Under the pieces are notes generated by a model. That model saw nothing but the letters and a program-made list of their open reading frames with translations, was not told the DNA's origin and did not search any database. Positions 1,752 through 8,379 of a DNA stretch of 64,000 nucleotides are shown in pieces (position 1 is the stretch's first letter; each line of letters opens with the position of its first letter). The position numbers were made by a program, and so were the translations under genes. The DNA is from an uncultured Lachnospiraceae bacterium. GTDB taxonomy: Bacteria; Bacillota; Clostridia; Lachnospirales; Lachnospiraceae. The stretch spans positions 124,001-188,000 of the forward strand of contig CANOZK010000004.1 in the NCBI GenBank assembly GCA_947571775.1, given 5' to 3'.

Positions 1752-4700
1752 TTAGTTTTTCTGTTTCCTCCCATAATAAGTGGATTCTTCTGCTACCATA
1801 GCTTGTGTTTTGGGTTCATCGTAAAGACGTGTAGCCTTCTCAAGGTCTTTTTCAAATTCTGCGCTTACCAAACCAAAATATTTTTCAAAAAACGCTTTCA
1901 GTTTTTCGATGACTATCTGCTTCTTTTTATTACGATTTGCTCCACTGCCAAAACGAGAGACAGGCGGCATCAGACGGTCAATATCGGTTCCAGTTGTCTT
2001 AAATATACCATCACGGAAAGCATTCTCCACAAACTTCCTAGTTTCTTCCAACTTTAATTTTTCTTCTGTAATCAAAATCTGAATATCCGCTTCGCGCTGT
2101 TTTTTTACAAAACGCTGCCAGTCTGCATTTATATCAGTATTGATATTAATAGTGGAAATGAAGTTTTCGATCAGTTCTTTTTTCGATCTGAGCTGTAAAC
2201 TGGATTTGATTGCCTTATCAATTACACTCAGAATTTCTTTATCCTTGCAATTGCTATTGTGATATTTTGCAACCAACATCAGGATATAATCTATGTTAAC
2301 TTCAATTTGCTTAACCAATTCCATTTCAAAGACAACATCATCCAGGATACTGTCCTTACTCCCTGGCTTAGGCCTTATTTCATCATACACATCATGATAT
2401 GTACCTGTATAATCCTGAAAATCAATTGGAGTTAAAATTTCATTTCCTGCAAAACGGTCAAAAGCCGAAAGAATGTTTCTTAAACGAAGGATGTTGCCGA
2501 ATAGTACAAGGAACTCTTTTTTGTTCTGTTCTCCAATAATCGGTCTTCCCAAAGGAAAGCGTTCAAGCAATTCTGTAATATGTTCTTCATAGCCTTTCTG
2601 GTTATCCCCTTTATCATTGGTGTATCCATAATAATAATCATCATAAGATTTTAAAAGCACAACACCATTGGCTTCTTTATCTCCAAACAATGCGACTGCA
2701 TTGTTTGTCTCTTTTTCCAAATCACGGAAACAGACAATATTACCAAAAGTTTTAACAGAATTCAAAATGCGGTTCGTTCTTGAAAATGCCTGTATCAGAG
2801 CGTGCATTTTTAAGTTTTTATCAACCCAAAGGGTATTGAGCGTTGTGGCATCAAAACCAGTCAGGAACATATTCACGACAATCAGCAAATCAATCTCTCG
2901 TTTCTTTACCTTATCAGATAAGTCTTTGTAATAATCCTGAAATCCCTTGCTGGACGTGTCAAAGTTCGTTTTAAAGATTTTATTGTAATCTTTGATTGCC
3001 ATATCCAGAAAATCACGAGAGTTCTGGTCAAGACCATCCATATCAAAACTTTCATCCTCCAGAATTCCATCCATATTATCTGCTTCGTTCGGAGCAAAAG
3101 AAAAGATAGTTGCTATTATCAGATCACGGTGCTGGCCTGCTATCTGTTTTTTCAGCTCTAAGTAATACTTTTTGCAAACAGAAATGGAGTTGACTGCGAA
3201 TATAGAATTAAATCCATTCACACGCTGACTTTTCAGATTGTAATAAGAATTTCGCATAGTCTTTTGGTCAAAATGTTCCAGAATATACTTCACAACTTCC
3301 GAAATACGATCTGATGATGCAAGTGCTTCTTCGGTATCAATGGCGGTAACTTTTTTGTCCTGCCTGCCGTCTCTTTGCCTGACTGTGTTGATATAGTCAA
3401 TACGAAATGGAAGAACATTGCCGTCATTGATTGCGTCCACAATGGTATAAGTATGAAGTTTCACACCAAATGCCTGTTCTGTGGTTTTCAGATTGGGATT
3501 GCTGCCAGTACTGGCATTGACAGCAAAAATCGGTGTGCCTGTAAATCCAAAAATATGATAATTCCTGAAATACTTATCTGTCTTAATGATTTTTCCACCT
3601 TTTTTTATCTGGCCTCCTACTATTCTGCTGTGCATATCTCCGAACTGACTTCGATGACATTCATCAAATATCAAAACGACATGCTTATCTCTAATAGAAT
3701 GCAACGGATTTTTCATAATAAATATATCCAACTTTTGGATGGTCGTTACAATAATCCGGGAAGTACTGTCCTCAAGCTGTCTTTGAAGAACAGCTGTACT
3801 CTTATTGCTGTTGGCGGCGCCCTTCTCAAAGCGGTCATATTCCTTAATTGTCTGGTAATCCAAATCCTTACGGTCAACCACAAAGAGAACTTTGTCAATA
3901 TACGGCAGACTTGCCGCAAGCTGTGCCGTCTTAAAGGAAGTCAGAGTTTTTCCACTTCCTGTGGTGTGCCAGATGTATCCTCCGGCTTCGATAGTGCCTG
4001 TTTTCCTATAATTTGCAGATACTTCAATTCTGTTTAGAACCCGTTCAGTTGCTATAATCTGATAGGGCCTCAGGACAAGCAACATTTTTTCGGATGTGAA
4101 TACACAGTATTTTGTCAGAATATTCAAAATGGTGTGTTTCGCAAAAAATGTCTTTGTAAAGTCCACAAGGTCTGGAATAATTCGATTATTGCCATCTGCC
4201 CAATAGGAAGTGAATTCAAAGCTGTTGGAAGTTTTCTTGCTGTGTTTCCTGGATGTATTTGTGCTTTCCTTAATATGACTGGCTCTGGTAGTATTGGAGT
4301 AATATCTAGTGAATGTGCCATTGGATATTACAAAAATCTGCACATACTCATAAAGTCCGCAGCCAGCCCAAAAACTGTCACGCTGATATCGATTAATCTG
4401 GTTAAACGCCTCCTGAATAGCAACGCCGCGGCGTTTCAGTTCTACATGAACCAGTGGCAAACCGTTGACCAAAATTGTCACATCATACTGGGTATCATGC
4501 CTTGCACCATCTTTTATGTCGGAAACATACTGGTTAATGACTTGTAAACGGTTGTTATGAATATTCTTTCTATCAATCAGGGAGATGTTTATGGTCGTAC
4601 CGTCCTCACGAATCAAATTCTGCACATGATCTTCCTGAATTTTTTGGGTCTTTTCCACAATTCCCTCATTGACATTGGCAATTTTACTTTTGAAAAAGCT

Positions 4701-4943
4701 GTCCCATTCCTTATCCGTAAACGAATAATTGTTTAGCGATTCTAACTGTCTGCGAAGATTGGCAATGAGTGCATCGCAATTTGTAATAGCCATATACTCA
4801 TAACCCTGTTCTCCCAGCATCTTGATAAATACCGATTCCAGGTCTGGTTCGCTCTGGTATGTGTCAGAACGTTCGCTCTGTGGCTCATATTCGGTTACAA
4901 CCGTACTTTCATCAGTGGAGAGCACAATATTGTAGGTACTCAT
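1752..4943 (-). CDS. hsdR: Type I restriction endonuclease, R subunit (system 1)
   Basis: 1063 residues, the usual HsdR length. The N-terminal PD-(D/E)xK nuclease site is visible as D154 and ELK at 168-170. The superfamily 2 translocase follows: Walker A TTGSGKT (to residue 333), DECH at 427-430, FTGTP motif III and a motif VI region (QAFSRTNRI). The C-terminal part is helical, as expected for the HsdM/HsdS-docking region. HsdR cleaves DNA after ATP-driven translocation when the HsdM2-HsdS core meets an unmethylated site. AAGGGGG lies 5 bases before the ATG at 4943. It is the fourth gene of the operon, 19 bases after the half-length hsdS, and no frameshift is seen. Confidence 0.97.
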   Translation of the reverse strand: MSTYNIVLSTDESTVVTEYEPQSERSDTYQSEPDLESVFIKMLGEQGYEYMAITNCDALIANLRRQLESLNNYSFTDKEWDSFFKSKIANVNEGIVEKTQKIQEDHVQNLIREDGTTINISLIDRKNIHNNRLQVINQYVSDIKDGARHDTQYDVTILVNGLPLVHVELKRRGVAIQEAFNQINRYQRDSFWAGCGLYEYVQIFVISNGTFTRYYSNTTRASHIKESTNTSRKHSKKTSNSFEFTSYWADGNNRIIPDLVDFTKTFFAKHTILNILTKYCVFTSEKMLLVLRPYQIIATERVLNRIEVSANYRKTGTIEAGGYIWHTTGSGKTLTSFKTAQLAASLPYIDKVLFVVDRKDLDYQTIKEYDRFEKGAANSNKSTAVLQRQLEDSTSRIIVTTIQKLDIFIMKNPLHSIRDKHVVLIFDECHRSQFGDMHSRIVGGQIKKGGKIIKTDKYFRNYHIFGFTGTPIFAVNASTGSNPNLKTTEQAFGVKLHTYTIVDAINDGNVLPFRIDYINTVRQRDGRQDKKVTAIDTEEALASSDRISEVVKYILEHFDQKTMRNSYYNLKSQRVNGFNSIFAVNSISVCKKYYLELKKQIAGQHRDLIIATIFSFAPNEADNMDGILEDESFDMDGLDQNSRDFLDMAIKDYNKIFKTNFDTSSKGFQDYYKDLSDKVKKREIDLLIVVNMFLTGFDATTLNTLWVDKNLKMHALIQAFSRTNRILNSVKTFGNIVCFRDLEKETNNAVALFGDKEANGVVLLKSYDDYYYGYTNDKGDNQKGYEEHITELLERFPLGRPIIGEQNKKEFLVLFGNILRLRNILSAFDRFAGNEILTPIDFQDYTGTYHDVYDEIRPKPGSKDSILDDVVFEMELVKQIEVNIDYILMLVAKYHNSNCKDKEILSVIDKAIKSSLQLRSKKELIENFISTININTDINADWQRFVKKQREADIQILITEEKLKLEETRKFVENAFRDGIFKTTGTDIDRLMPPVSRFGSGANRNKKKQIVIEKLKAFFEKYFGLVSAEFEKDLEKATRLYDEPKTQAMVAEESTYYGRKQKN

Positions 4944-4962
4944 AAAAACCCCCTTCTTCGCA

Positions 4963-5514
4963 TTACTCTGCCGGTTGGAAAGTCAGCAGTTTATCGCGAT
5001 AGTATTCATATTGCTTCTGGCGGGCTTCGATTTCTGCCGGAAGTCCGCTAATCAAATCATTGCAAAGCGCATCAAAATGGTCAAGAATAGAAACGATACG
5101 ATTCTGTTCTTCAAACAATGGAATTGAAAGTAATACTTGTTTTACCTGCCCCGCTGTGATAAGGGGCTGACCTCCACCTTTTGCATAACGGTGCAAATCC
5201 ATATTGACAAGCTGATAGTAAATATATTTAAGATTATAATCTTCTTTTACATCGACAATAAGGGTGTTATCAGATACATCATATTTGTCATGTGATAAAT
5301 GGGTATATCCTGCATTTGCTCCAACACGAGCAACCAAAATATTTGTCTTGTTATAAACTGCCTGATTGGTTCGTGCGATTATACCAGTCGAACCGTATAC
5401 AGGATATTTGCCATCAATATTTTTTGTCTTTGCTTTTCCTGATGAAACAGAATAGCATATTTCATCTAATGGTAGCATAACAAAACCAAACACATACTGA
5501 ATGAGCTTAATCAT
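4963..5514 (-). CDS. Half-length type I specificity subunit (one TRD)
   Basis: A 183-residue protein with a single target-recognition domain (about residues 14-150, with SSGKAKTKNIDGKYPVYGSTG and GGGQPLITAGQVKQ, typical of HsdS TRDs) and one conserved spacer helix (GLPAEIEARQKQYEYYRDKL). Full HsdS carries two such halves. Its ATG overlaps the stop of the preceding hsdS (ATGA at 5511-5514) and has no independent ribosome site, so it is expected to be made by coupled re-initiation. Half subunits of known type I enzymes can dimerise and recognise palindromic sites, so this protein may give HsdM a second specificity. In a changed repeat phase (tract at 5518-5545) it would be fused to the upstream HsdS. 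It could also be a remnant of an hsdS duplication. Confidence 0.9.
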   Translation of the reverse strand: MIKLIQYVFGFVMLPLDEICYSVSSGKAKTKNIDGKYPVYGSTGIIARTNQAVYNKTNILVARVGANAGYTHLSHDKYDVSDNTLIVDVKEDYNLKYIYYQLVNMDLHRYAKGGGQPLITAGQVKQVLLSIPLFEEQNRIVSILDHFDALCNDLISGLPAEIEARQKQYEYYRDKLLTFQPAE

Positions 5515-6752
5515 ACCTGCTCGTTGCTCGTTGCTCGTTGCTCGTCAGAGACGATTGCACCAGTCTCGGAAAATGTCAATAGAATATCACGATAATATTC
5601 ATATTGTCTTTGTCGTGCTTCAATCTCTGCTGGCAAACCGATATTCAGTTCGGAACAAATTACATCAAAATTATCCAGTACATTGACAATACGTTGCTGA
5701 ACTTGCAAATCTGGAAGCGCAAGCTTTGTATCCAAAATGAGTGTTGAATTTAGGTCGCCTCTGGCTCCCCGCCTTTTCAAGAGCAATTCGGAATATTTTC
5801 TACACATACAGTAATAAACATATTTATAGAGAGCTTTAGAAGGGTCAATCTCCATATTCAAGCAATGTTGATTTGTAGTTACTTTGATTTTATTGACTGC
5901 ACAACGTCCTGCCGATGCACCAGAAATTGTTACAATCACACAATTTTCTGGAATCCATTTTACAGCTGTTTCTCTGACTGCTTTCTCGGTAATAAAACTG
6001 TCTACTTCATAAATTTCATTAAATTTTACATCCTGTGTTCTTATCCATGGAATCGTTCCATTTTCATAAAAATCTGAGGTTCCTTTCGCTGGTGTGGCGC
6101 CTGAACAACTGCGTTTGACTACATCTCTTAGAGAAACAATATTCACTTCATTATCGAAAGTCAGTAGTTTATTACGATAATAGTTATATTGTCTTTGCCT
6201 TGCTGTTAGTTCCGCTGCCAATTCCGCTGTTAATCCTGCTATTAACTCTGTGAAATTATCTAAAATACGAACAATTTCACTCTGGATTGGTAAAGGCGGA
6301 ACTGGTATAACAAATTCTTCTGTTACGGGTAATGAAATTTGTGGCAGTGAACCCATACCAGATGCTAAATTTCTAAATTTTTGAATGTTATTCTTCAGAA
6401 CATAGTATAAAAATTTCACTGTGATTTTATTATCGGTTGTATATGCCCACATTTCATTTTTAAAAGTGAATGGTTTTTCGTAATATACAACATCAATAAT
6501 ACCTCTAGATTGAACTAATACAGCGGGCATTCTTGTAATATTAGCGTTAGGAATATCTTCTTCTCGTGCATTTATAACGGTTTTTCCACCTGCAAAAACT
6601 TTAATTTTTCCATCTGGAGTATTAATTTCTTTCATTTTTTTTGCTGTAATAGATGTGCCTTTTATTCTTTTAAAAACATCTTTTACTTTTTTAAATTCAA
6701 CACCATTAGGGCAAAGTTTCTGAATTAATTTTTCAAGTTTGCTCATTATCAT
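5511..6752 (-). CDS. hsdS: Type I restriction-modification specificity subunit (system 1), two TRDs
   Basis: 413 residues with the standard architecture: TRD1 (about 15-155), a central spacer helix (about 165-198), TRD2 (about 205-350) and a C-terminal spacer (about 365-394). It sets the bipartite DNA target of the methylase and nuclease. The central spacer carries three 4-residue units (GLTA, ELAA, ELTA; residues 173-184), one unit more than the C-terminal spacer or the half-HsdS. The last residues (SDEQRATSNEQV) are encoded by a 7-bp tandem repeat that ends at the stop. The ATG at 6752 overlaps the hsdM stop; an alternative ATG two codons later (MSKLEKL) looks more like other HsdS N-termini. 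Confidence 0.95.
   Translation of the reverse strand: MIMSKLEKLIQKLCPNGVEFKKVKDVFKRIKGTSITAKKMKEINTPDGKIKVFAGGKTVINAREEDIPNANITRMPAVLVQSRGIIDVVYYEKPFTFKNEMWAYTTDNKITVKFLYYVLKNNIQKFRNLASGMGSLPQISLPVTEEFVIPVPPLPIQSEIVRILDNFTELIAGLTAELAAELTARQRQYNYYRNKLLTFDNEVNIVSLRDVVKRSCSGATPAKGTSDFYENGTIPWIRTQDVKFNEIYEVDSFITEKAVRETAVKWIPENCVIVTISGASAGRCAVNKIKVTTNQHCLNMEIDPSKALYKYVYYCMCRKYSELLLKRRGARGDLNSTLILDTKLALPDLQVQQRIVNVLDNFDVICSELNIGLPAEIEARQRQYEYYRDILLTFSETGAIVSDEQRATSNEQV
5518..5545. repeat. Four perfect copies of a 7-bp unit at the hsdS/half-hsdS junction
   Basis: The unit is TGCTCGT on the plus strand (ACGAGCA in the coding sense), four times without a mismatch. Seven is not a multiple of three, so each gain or loss shifts the frame. 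With four copies hsdS stops at TGA overlapping the next ATG; with three it stops at a TAA two codons later; with five (or two) it reads through into the half-hsdS in frame, giving a predicted fused protein of about 598 residues for five copies. Confidence 0.95.
6201..6236. repeat. Three degenerate 12-bp units (TAEL-like) in the central HsdS spacer
   Basis: Encodes GLTA-ELAA-ELTA in the spacer helix. The two other spacer copies in this locus (near 5000-5050 and 5590-5645) have a single unit (GLPAEIEARQ). The EcoR124-type enzymes change the spacing of their bipartite target by gaining or losing a TAEL unit in the same place. Confidence 0.75.
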
Positions 6753-8311
6753 GCCTCAATTTCTGTAATGATTTTCGTAATTTCATCTCTCAAAAACTGC
6801 TCTCTGACAACGATTTTTTCGATTTCTGTATTGAGTTTCACAATATCGATTTCCTCTCTAGTATTTTTCTGCTCTACATAAGTATTCACAGAAAGATTGT
6901 AGTTCTGTTCAAAAATTTCTTCATAAGGAACACATCGGGCAAAGTAATCAACATCCGCACGAGAAACAAATTCCTCCACAATATGCATTATATTTTCATC
7001 TGTCAGCCGATTACTATTTGTTACTTTTACAAATTCGTTGGAAGCATCGATAAACAAAGTACGATTGTCAGCCTTGCTGCGTTTCAAAACCATAATGCAA
7101 GTCGCAATCGAGGTTCCAAAAAACAGATTACTCGGCAACTGAATAATACAGTCAATGAAATTATTATCAATCAGATATTGACGGATTTTCTTCTCAGCTC
7201 CACCGCGATACATGATACCAGGGAAGCAAACAATGGCCGCTGTTCCATTGGTGGCAAGCCATGCCAGAGAGTGCATGATAAACGCAAGGTCTGCTTTGGA
7301 CTTCGGTGCAAGCACTCCGGCAGAAGAAAAACGAGGGTCATTGATCAAAACAGGGTTGTTATCTCCCTCCCATTTGATGGAATATGGAGGATTGGAAACA
7401 ATCACCTCAAAAGGTTCATCATCCCAATGTTGCGGGGACAGTAATGTATCCTCATGAGCAATGTCAAACTTGTCAAAATCGATGTCATGAAGAAACATAT
7501 TGATACGGCAAAGGTTATAAGTGGTCAAGTTTATTTCCTGACCATAAAAACCTTGGCGAACGTTCTCTTTACCAAGGATTTTCGCTGCTTTTAGAAGTAG
7601 AGAACCAGAACCGCAGGCGGGATCATATACCTTATTAACCTCAATTTTTCCAACAACCGCAATACGAGTCAGCAATTCCGATACTTCCTGGGGAGTAAAA
7701 AACTCTCCGCCGCTTTTTCCGGCATTGGATGCGTACATACTCATTAGATATTCGTAGGCATCGCCAAAGGCATCAATGGAGTTTTCCTTGTAATCACCCA
7801 GCCTCATATTCGCAACGCCCTCAATCAGCTTCACAAGATTTGCATTTCGTTTTGCAACAGTGGCCCCCAGCTTATTGCTGTTGACATCAATATCATCAAA
7901 CAGTCCGGCGAAATTACCTTCGCTTTCACTGCCTTTCGCAGACTCCTCAATATGGTGAAAGGCAGCTTCTAAAGTCATATTCAGATTTTCATCACTTACA
8001 GCTTTCTTTTTAACATTGCAGAAAAGCTCAGACGGCAGAATGAAGAAACCTTTTGTATGAACCAAATCTTCACGAGCCTGTTCTGCATCTTCATCGGATA
8101 GCAAAACATAATCGAAGCCATCGTTTCCTGCTTCAATTTCACCCTCGTTGATATAATTGGTCAGATTCTCAGAAATATAGCGATAGAACATCATGCCCAG
8201 CACATAAGATTTGAAATCCCATCCGTCTACACTCCCACGCAGTTCATCAGCAATCGCCCAGATTGCGCGATGCAGCTCATCACGCTCCTGCTCTTTTTTT
8301 ACATCAGCCAT
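6749..8311 (-). CDS. hsdM: Type I restriction-modification DNA methyltransferase, M subunit (system 1)
   Basis: 520 residues. An N-terminal helical HsdM domain (1-160) precedes an N6-adenine methyltransferase domain with GGEFFTPQ (201-208), the SAM-binding DPACGSG (230-236) and the catalytic NPPY (307-310). Two HsdM and one HsdS form the modification enzyme. AAGGAG lies upstream of the ATG at 8311, and a promoter candidate is at 8380-8408. The stop overlaps the hsdS start by 4 bases. It is the first gene of the operon hsdM-hsdS-half hsdS-hsdR-DUF3800-small protein. Confidence 0.97.
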   Translation of the reverse strand: MADVKKEQERDELHRAIWAIADELRGSVDGWDFKSYVLGMMFYRYISENLTNYINEGEIEAGNDGFDYVLLSDEDAEQAREDLVHTKGFFILPSELFCNVKKKAVSDENLNMTLEAAFHHIEESAKGSESEGNFAGLFDDIDVNSNKLGATVAKRNANLVKLIEGVANMRLGDYKENSIDAFGDAYEYLMSMYASNAGKSGGEFFTPQEVSELLTRIAVVGKIEVNKVYDPACGSGSLLLKAAKILGKENVRQGFYGQEINLTTYNLCRINMFLHDIDFDKFDIAHEDTLLSPQHWDDEPFEVIVSNPPYSIKWEGDNNPVLINDPRFSSAGVLAPKSKADLAFIMHSLAWLATNGTAAIVCFPGIMYRGGAEKKIRQYLIDNNFIDCIIQLPSNLFFGTSIATCIMVLKRSKADNRTLFIDASNEFVKVTNSNRLTDENIMHIVEEFVSRADVDYFARCVPYEEIFEQNYNLSVNTYVEQKNTREEIDIVKLNTEIEKIVVREQFLRDEITKIITEIEA

Positions 8312-8379
8312 TTTGTTCTCCTTTTCAACCGATATGAATCCAGTTAATTTTTCTCGCTGTAATAATTTACCATCTCAAT

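Follow-up and report, generated by a model that had tools for sequence, protein, structure and literature searches.

The two specificity genes of a type I restriction-modification locus in an uncultured Lachnospiraceae bacterium meet at a short tandem repeat, four copies of the 7-nt unit ACGAGCA, which very probably serves as the slipped-strand frame switch of a type IC HsdS. Judged from the sequence, changes in copy number would alternate between a two-TRD HsdS accompanied by a half-HsdS and a single three-TRD HsdS. The locus lies on the minus strand of the 64,000-nt stretch of DNA that was analysed, here called the window, and comprises the following features.

1752..4943, minus strand: hsdR, 1063 aa, with PF12008 (EcoR124_C), PF04313 and PF18766; its start lies 19 nt past hsdS2
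4963..5514, minus strand: hsdS2, half specificity subunit of 183 aa, TRD3-CR3, an open reading frame matching PF01420 (E 5.3e-19)
4979..5043, minus strand: CR3 copy of a 65-nt conserved-region direct repeat (repeat search, 74% to the CR2 copy)
5511..6752, minus strand: hsdS1, two-TRD specificity subunit of 413 aa, TRD1-CR1-TRD2-CR2, with two PF01420 Methylase_S stretches
5518..5545, minus strand: probable frame-switch tandem repeat, 4 x ACGAGCA (TGCTCGT x4 on the plus strand; TRF, 100% matches)
5572..5636, minus strand: CR2 copy of the 65-nt direct repeat, the reference copy, just upstream of the array in the reading direction
6157..6221, minus strand: CR1 copy of the 65-nt direct repeat (repeat search, 75% to the CR2 copy)
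6749..8311, minus strand: hsdM, methyltransferase of 520 aa (PF02384 and PF12161), overlapping hsdS1 by 4 nt

The hsdR, hsdM and hsdS genes stand together in the locus, Pfam matches were obtained for all four proteins, and 4-nt overlaps occur at two gene pairs, hsdM-hsdS1 and hsdS1-hsdS2. The best match of hsdS1 to a solved structure is 7bst_A, the S subunit of EcoR124II (E 4.6e-52), and its CR1 contains degenerate, TAEL-like tetra-residue repeats (LTAELAAELTAR, at about 6200-6240 on the minus strand). Tetra-residue repeats of the TAEL type in the central conserved region are described as a feature of type IC systems (PMC10030836). By its sequence, the system is a type I restriction-modification system of type IC, on which the Pfam set, the likeness to EcoR124 and the TAEL-type repeats all agree. 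The number of the TAEL-like repeats varies among the relatives read; they set the spacer length in EcoR124-type systems, where the spacer repeat unit is 12 nt, and could be a second, in-frame dial. Past hsdR, also on the minus strand, lie a DUF3800 protein (PF12686, 1032-1739) and a 184-aa ORF without a Pfam match (500-1054), which possibly belong to the same locus.

The array is the top-scoring period-7 array of the window (TRF), and its 28 nt form the longest perfect period-7 tract, compared with at most 22 nt in 300 simulated first-order Markov sequences of 64 kb. In the 2.70 Mb of its own genome, the two-copy 14-nt pattern occurs at one place, with three overlapping matches, all at the array. 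An earlier note on this DNA described four perfect copies ending at the hsdS stop; the four copies are there, but the array stops 4 nt short of it. As that note had recognised, the stop is overlapped by the start of the next specificity frame, the ATG of hsdS2 (5514-5512) and the TGA of hsdS1 (5513-5511) sharing ATGA at 5514-5511. Translation of the locus with 1-11 copies yields fusion proteins of 591, 598, 605 and 612 aa at 2, 5, 8 and 11 copies, respectively. The frames are split at 1, 4, 7 and 10 copies, with a stop 7 nt past the array, and at 3, 6 and 9 copies, with a stop 11 nt past it; these hsdS1 stops fall on, or just beyond, the hsdS2 ATG. The frame arithmetic given before (three or four copies split, two or five fused, about 598 residues at five) agrees with this series. 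The heptamer as such was discarded as an hsdS-specific element: its three-copy, 21-nt pattern is spread over many phyla, in at least 117 stretches. The operon's four proteins matched none of 80 loci with this pattern (0/80, tblastn), in a search repeated with the own locus as positive control, which was the sole match.

One allele is seen at two copy numbers, four in the window and eight in the database protein P0001. This protein of 495 aa is the best database match to hsdS1, with 100% identity across the whole query; it represents a cluster of 11 sequences, lies on a contig of 1802 bases, and is read here from the representative. Its linker consists of eight repeat units and the frame continues into hsdS2, 478 of the 495 residues being those of the 8-copy reading of the locus, including the first 56 residues of hsdS2. 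The last 17 residues (479-495) depart from the hsdS2 frame inside TRD3, and the allele may have been broken there by a real second mutation, or the contig may contain an assembly error. P0001 thus follows the half-HsdS for 56 residues only, and the window allele is not seen in an intact fused form. The earlier note had proposed that copy number toggles between the split and fused states, and had named an invariant count of four as one sign to the contrary. P0001 bears the proposal out, being identical to HsdS and reading through eight units into the half-HsdS, and because it carries eight, the count is not always four. Against the switch reading stand the broken half-HsdS frame of P0001, which is the only other allele of this locus seen, and the shortness of the four-copy array in the window. 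By DNA, none of the four other genomes of the same genus matches the hsdS region, and therefore there is no copy-number series within the genus. None of the half-HsdS matches listed, whose further source organisms are more distant, exceeds 80% identity, and the window's own half-HsdS was therefore not found in the database.

Related proteins extend the picture to other alleles. The protein search with hsdS1 returned 7969 matches, of which the best 120 were examined. Fused forms account for 63 of these 120: 61 in which three conserved regions were recognised, P0001, and P0090, which had escaped the landmark pattern. Among the other 57, five have a split-like tail of the DRQ type (P0008, P0010, P0012, P0026, P0051) and 52 do not. 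The linkers of the fused forms show peptide periods of 4, 5, 7 or 2 residues, as units of 4, 5, 7 or 2 nt give, and some contain a single repeat unit. In the metagenomic alleles P0083, P0086, P0088, P0089 and P0093, the sequences on both sides of the linker are 100% identical and the repeat number alone differs. A search with residues 1-405 of P0088 identified P0242 (435 aa, from a cluster of 33 members), the split-phase form of the P0088 allele, with 423 identical residues; with P0242 split and P0088 fused, a second allele is therefore seen in both phases. The best 120 matches of the P0088 query comprise 111 of fused length (109 by the three-region pattern, plus P0248 and P0310), seven split forms with repeat tails and two two-TRD proteins without a tail (P0289, P0292). 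Lachnoclostridium sp. An181 and a Lentisphaeraceae MAG are among the sources of the listed hsdS1 relatives, and Roseburia hominis is among those listed for the P0088 query.

At the DNA level, 32 of 397 genomes of the family (the own genome included) match the hsdS region, and 30 of the 32 yielded the locus. Junctions were recognised by the conserved-region motif followed by a conserved half-gene start (QYVFG or similar as landmark) after which 100 or more codons are open, in loci from the hsdS DNA matches and in further locus sets, including loci with GACA arrays. The scan gave 14 distinct hsdS/half-hsdS junctions, the window included, which are homologous and not independent, and every one has a tandem tract at the hinge. 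The unit is GACA in 11 of the 14, ACGAGCA in the window, an 8-nt unit in G242 and a 2-nt unit in G171 (in G202 the tract is partly masked and 10 nt of it were read); unit lengths are 2, 4, 7 and 8 nt, and none is 3, 6 or 9. At each of the 14 junctions, a single frame leads to fusion and the remaining two meet a stop 5-27 nt past the tract. Four junctions are fused (G283, G120, G371, G242) and ten are split, near the 1:2 ratio of random phase. The related genomes, to which the earlier note had pointed for a comparison of copy number, thus hold frame-shifting repeats at the corresponding hinge, with some loci fused and others split. A further split junction, additional to the 14, occurs in G406, from another family of the same order. 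Five loci were left out (G268, G318, G009, G302, G607), being cut by a contig end or having no half gene behind. The design is not universal among the relatives, as G141 and G612 have a two-TRD hsdS without tract or half gene.

Arrays of at least five GACA copies occur at 59 places in 41 of the 397 family genomes. In 13 of these places the array comes after a conserved region of hsdS, which in one case is an 11-residue stub where the contig ends. The hsdS tail of G302 (L133/L220) carries 11 GACA copies; a half-hsdS was not found behind it, and it is perhaps a deletion derivative. The other 46 places lie away from hsdS (L191, L195, L205 and L206 among the GACA loci), and the four arrays checked adjoin an Acyl_transf_3 (PF01757) frame, just before it. 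Some genomes have several GACA arrays, such as G384 and G005 with four each, and tetranucleotide phase variation of other genes therefore looks common. AGCAG arrays were found in five of the 397 genomes, at one place each, none at hsdS and none entered by an open frame longer than 60 codons; the 5-nt hinge unit is thus deduced from the peptide period alone.

In the proposed mechanism, slipped-strand mispairing would presumably alter the number of ACGAGCA units, and the count modulo three would set two overlapping frames (as with four copies) or one joined frame (as with eight). In the split state, the two-TRD HsdS would read its usual bipartite site. The half-HsdS, whose translation is presumably coupled through the ATGA overlap, could act on a palindromic site by self-pairing, as is known of half-HsdS proteins in other systems. 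In the fused state, TRD3 would be tethered beside TRD2 and find its partner in the same chain, so that a site read by TRD2/TRD3 (or TRD1/TRD3) would be added. Because TRD3 would pair in trans when split and within the chain when fused, switching would give TRD3 a different partner and leave the system on. Recognition of palindromes is on record for truncated type IC HsdS proteins of other systems (studies cited by PMC10030836 and PMC3936762), and in Helicobacter pylori the three-TRD HsdS of JHP1422/JHP1423 is reported to use different TRD pairings to methylate two sites, TRD3 of JHP1422 alone acting on a palindrome (PMC3936762). On account of these two precedents, the predicted methylation is one constant motif, from TRD1/TRD2, and a second that changes with the phase.

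In the window, where the ATG of the half gene overlaps the hsdS1 stop, coupled translation in the split state is plausible, and in G171 the GTG of the half-hsdS likewise overlaps the hsdS stop by 4 nt. It is less sure in the split loci of the other relatives: in the remaining eight of the ten, the nearest half-HsdS start is a TTG 2-8 nt past the hsdS stop (five loci) or a GTG 13-23 nt past it (three), and the half-HsdS may therefore not be made there. Starts of this kind, 2-23 nt behind the stop, favour an on/off switch of the third TRD, in which the half-HsdS is made only when fused and, in the split state, the ribosome leaves and the two-TRD HsdS works alone. We regard this alternative as rather unlikely, given the start codons that overlap the stop by 4 nt in the window (ATG) and G171 (GTG), the similar overlap of hsdM and hsdS in the same operon, and the size of the half-HsdS matches, 81 of the best 120 being 210 aa or shorter; half-size proteins are thus often predicted, although some are perhaps fragments.

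It is improbable that the repeat is a passive by-product, with the split pair fixed at the locus and copy changes being rare or a neutral decay. The four copies of the window, the downstream break of P0001, and the scatter of ACGAGCA arrays of three or more copies over many unrelated genomes, where 0/80 loci match the operon proteins, would suit such a history. They leave aside that all 14 junctions hold a non-triplet tract with paired stops just past it, that identical alleles differ in copy number (P0083, P0086, P0088, P0089, P0093), and that a second allele exists in both phases (P0088/P0242).

The third TRD itself is drawn from a pool that it shares with TRD1 and TRD2. Clustering of 187 TRDs at 60% identity gave 30 clusters, five of which occupy more than one position; the cluster of the window TRD2 contains 18 TRD2 (the window included) and 36 TRD3, and five TRD3 group in TRD1-type clusters. 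Sequence therefore places TRD3 among the ordinary recognition domains. In the window, TRD2 and TRD3 fall in different clusters. The fused relative P0005 has three Methylase_S stretches (Pfam), and its AlphaFold model, nearest to the HsdS structures 1yf2 and 7bst, contains three TRD modules (mean pLDDT 78.2, pTM 0.42); the single TRDs come out fairly well but, at this pTM, their arrangement is uncertain, and the model therefore does not decide the TRD pairing. Recombination between the three 65-nt direct repeats (CR1-CR3), which are 74-75% alike, could exchange TRDs or delete the half gene. That recombination among them, shuffling the TRDs, is the real diversifier and the tandem repeat secondary is very doubtful: these repeats and the clusters common to more than one position fit, but the non-triplet tract at one hinge and the copy-number series with identical TRDs are left unexplained. 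TRD recombination and the tandem-repeat switch can coexist.

Several known systems share parts of the design that we propose for this switch. In NgoAV of Neisseria gonorrhoeae, hsdS1 and hsdS2 are fused by the loss of one G in a poly-G tract; on its own, hsdS1 gives a truncated HsdS of 208 aa (full length about 410), hsdS2 is said to encode no active protein by itself, and fusion restores the full-length HsdS (PMC9577141). As in the window, where a tract between two hsdS frames sets their fusion by its length, a tract prone to slippage, 3'-terminal in hsdS1, determines whether hsdS2 is separate or fused, changing the specificity of NgoAV. The tract is a homopolymer there and has a 7-nt unit here, and the fused product described for NgoAV is a full-length HsdS, whereas in the window an already complete two-TRD HsdS (two Methylase_S stretches) gains a third TRD from hsdS2 (one stretch). 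JHP1422 of H. pylori resembles the fused state in being a single chain with three TRDs; its TRD2 equals its TRD3, unlike those of the window, and a repeat-driven split/fused switch is not mentioned in the part of PMC3936762 drawn on here.

The locus is like EcoR124I/II in its best structural match (7bst), the EcoR124_C domain of HsdR and the TAEL-like repeats between TRD1 and TRD2. The known type IC repeat variation alters the spacer in frame (PMC10030836, as far as drawn on here), whereas the array in the window would alter how many TRDs each chain has. In Bacillus licheniformis, BlihIA also combines a full HsdS and a one-TRD half HsdS in one system, the part of PMC12429846 used here mentioning no switching tract. 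Loci of the SpnIII type likewise have phase-variable specificity, which there comes from several hsdS genes recombining at their inverted repeats (PMC7394358). An inverting locus was considered and rejected for the window: inverted repeats between an expressed and a spare hsdS were not found in 4900-8320, which holds one imperfect 16-nt pair, with one arm in hsdM.

Repeats in hsdS genes are themselves not rare, being present in 7.9% of them in a REBASE survey (Atack 2020, quoted in PMC9577141 and PMC7394358). The same survey (FASEB J) is cited for three-TRD HsdS by PMC12429846; it may already describe repeat-bearing three-TRD genes, and a first report is therefore not claimed. The earlier note put the novelty too high: repeats in hsdS, fusion switching as in NgoAV, and HsdS chains with three TRDs have each been described before. 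A hinge switch of the present design, toggling between a split and a three-TRD subunit, is described in none of the titles and abstract openings listed in the literature searched. What is special is the gain of a third TRD, the varied non-triplet units at one hinge, and both phases for two alleles.

More broadly, and tentatively, the locus may belong to a type IC family, probably centred on gut Clostridia, with a fixed slippery hinge after TRD2, for which nearly any non-triplet repeat (2, 4, 5, 7 or 8 nt) would serve. The partner of TRD3 would be rewired in this family, being TRD3 itself in trans when split and TRD1/TRD2 in cis when fused, and the second motif would flip between palindromic and asymmetric while the first remains constant. 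Such loci provide natural material for asking how type I enzymes use a third TRD; in the literature searched, JHP1422 is the only case of this to have been characterised. The DNA sites that a cell marks would probably change with copy number. If this is true, the array is a cheap genetic dial by which one methylation and restriction specificity is kept and a second flips within a clone, the methylated motifs should be predictable from tract length alone, and there would be consequences for phage defence and possibly for gene expression.
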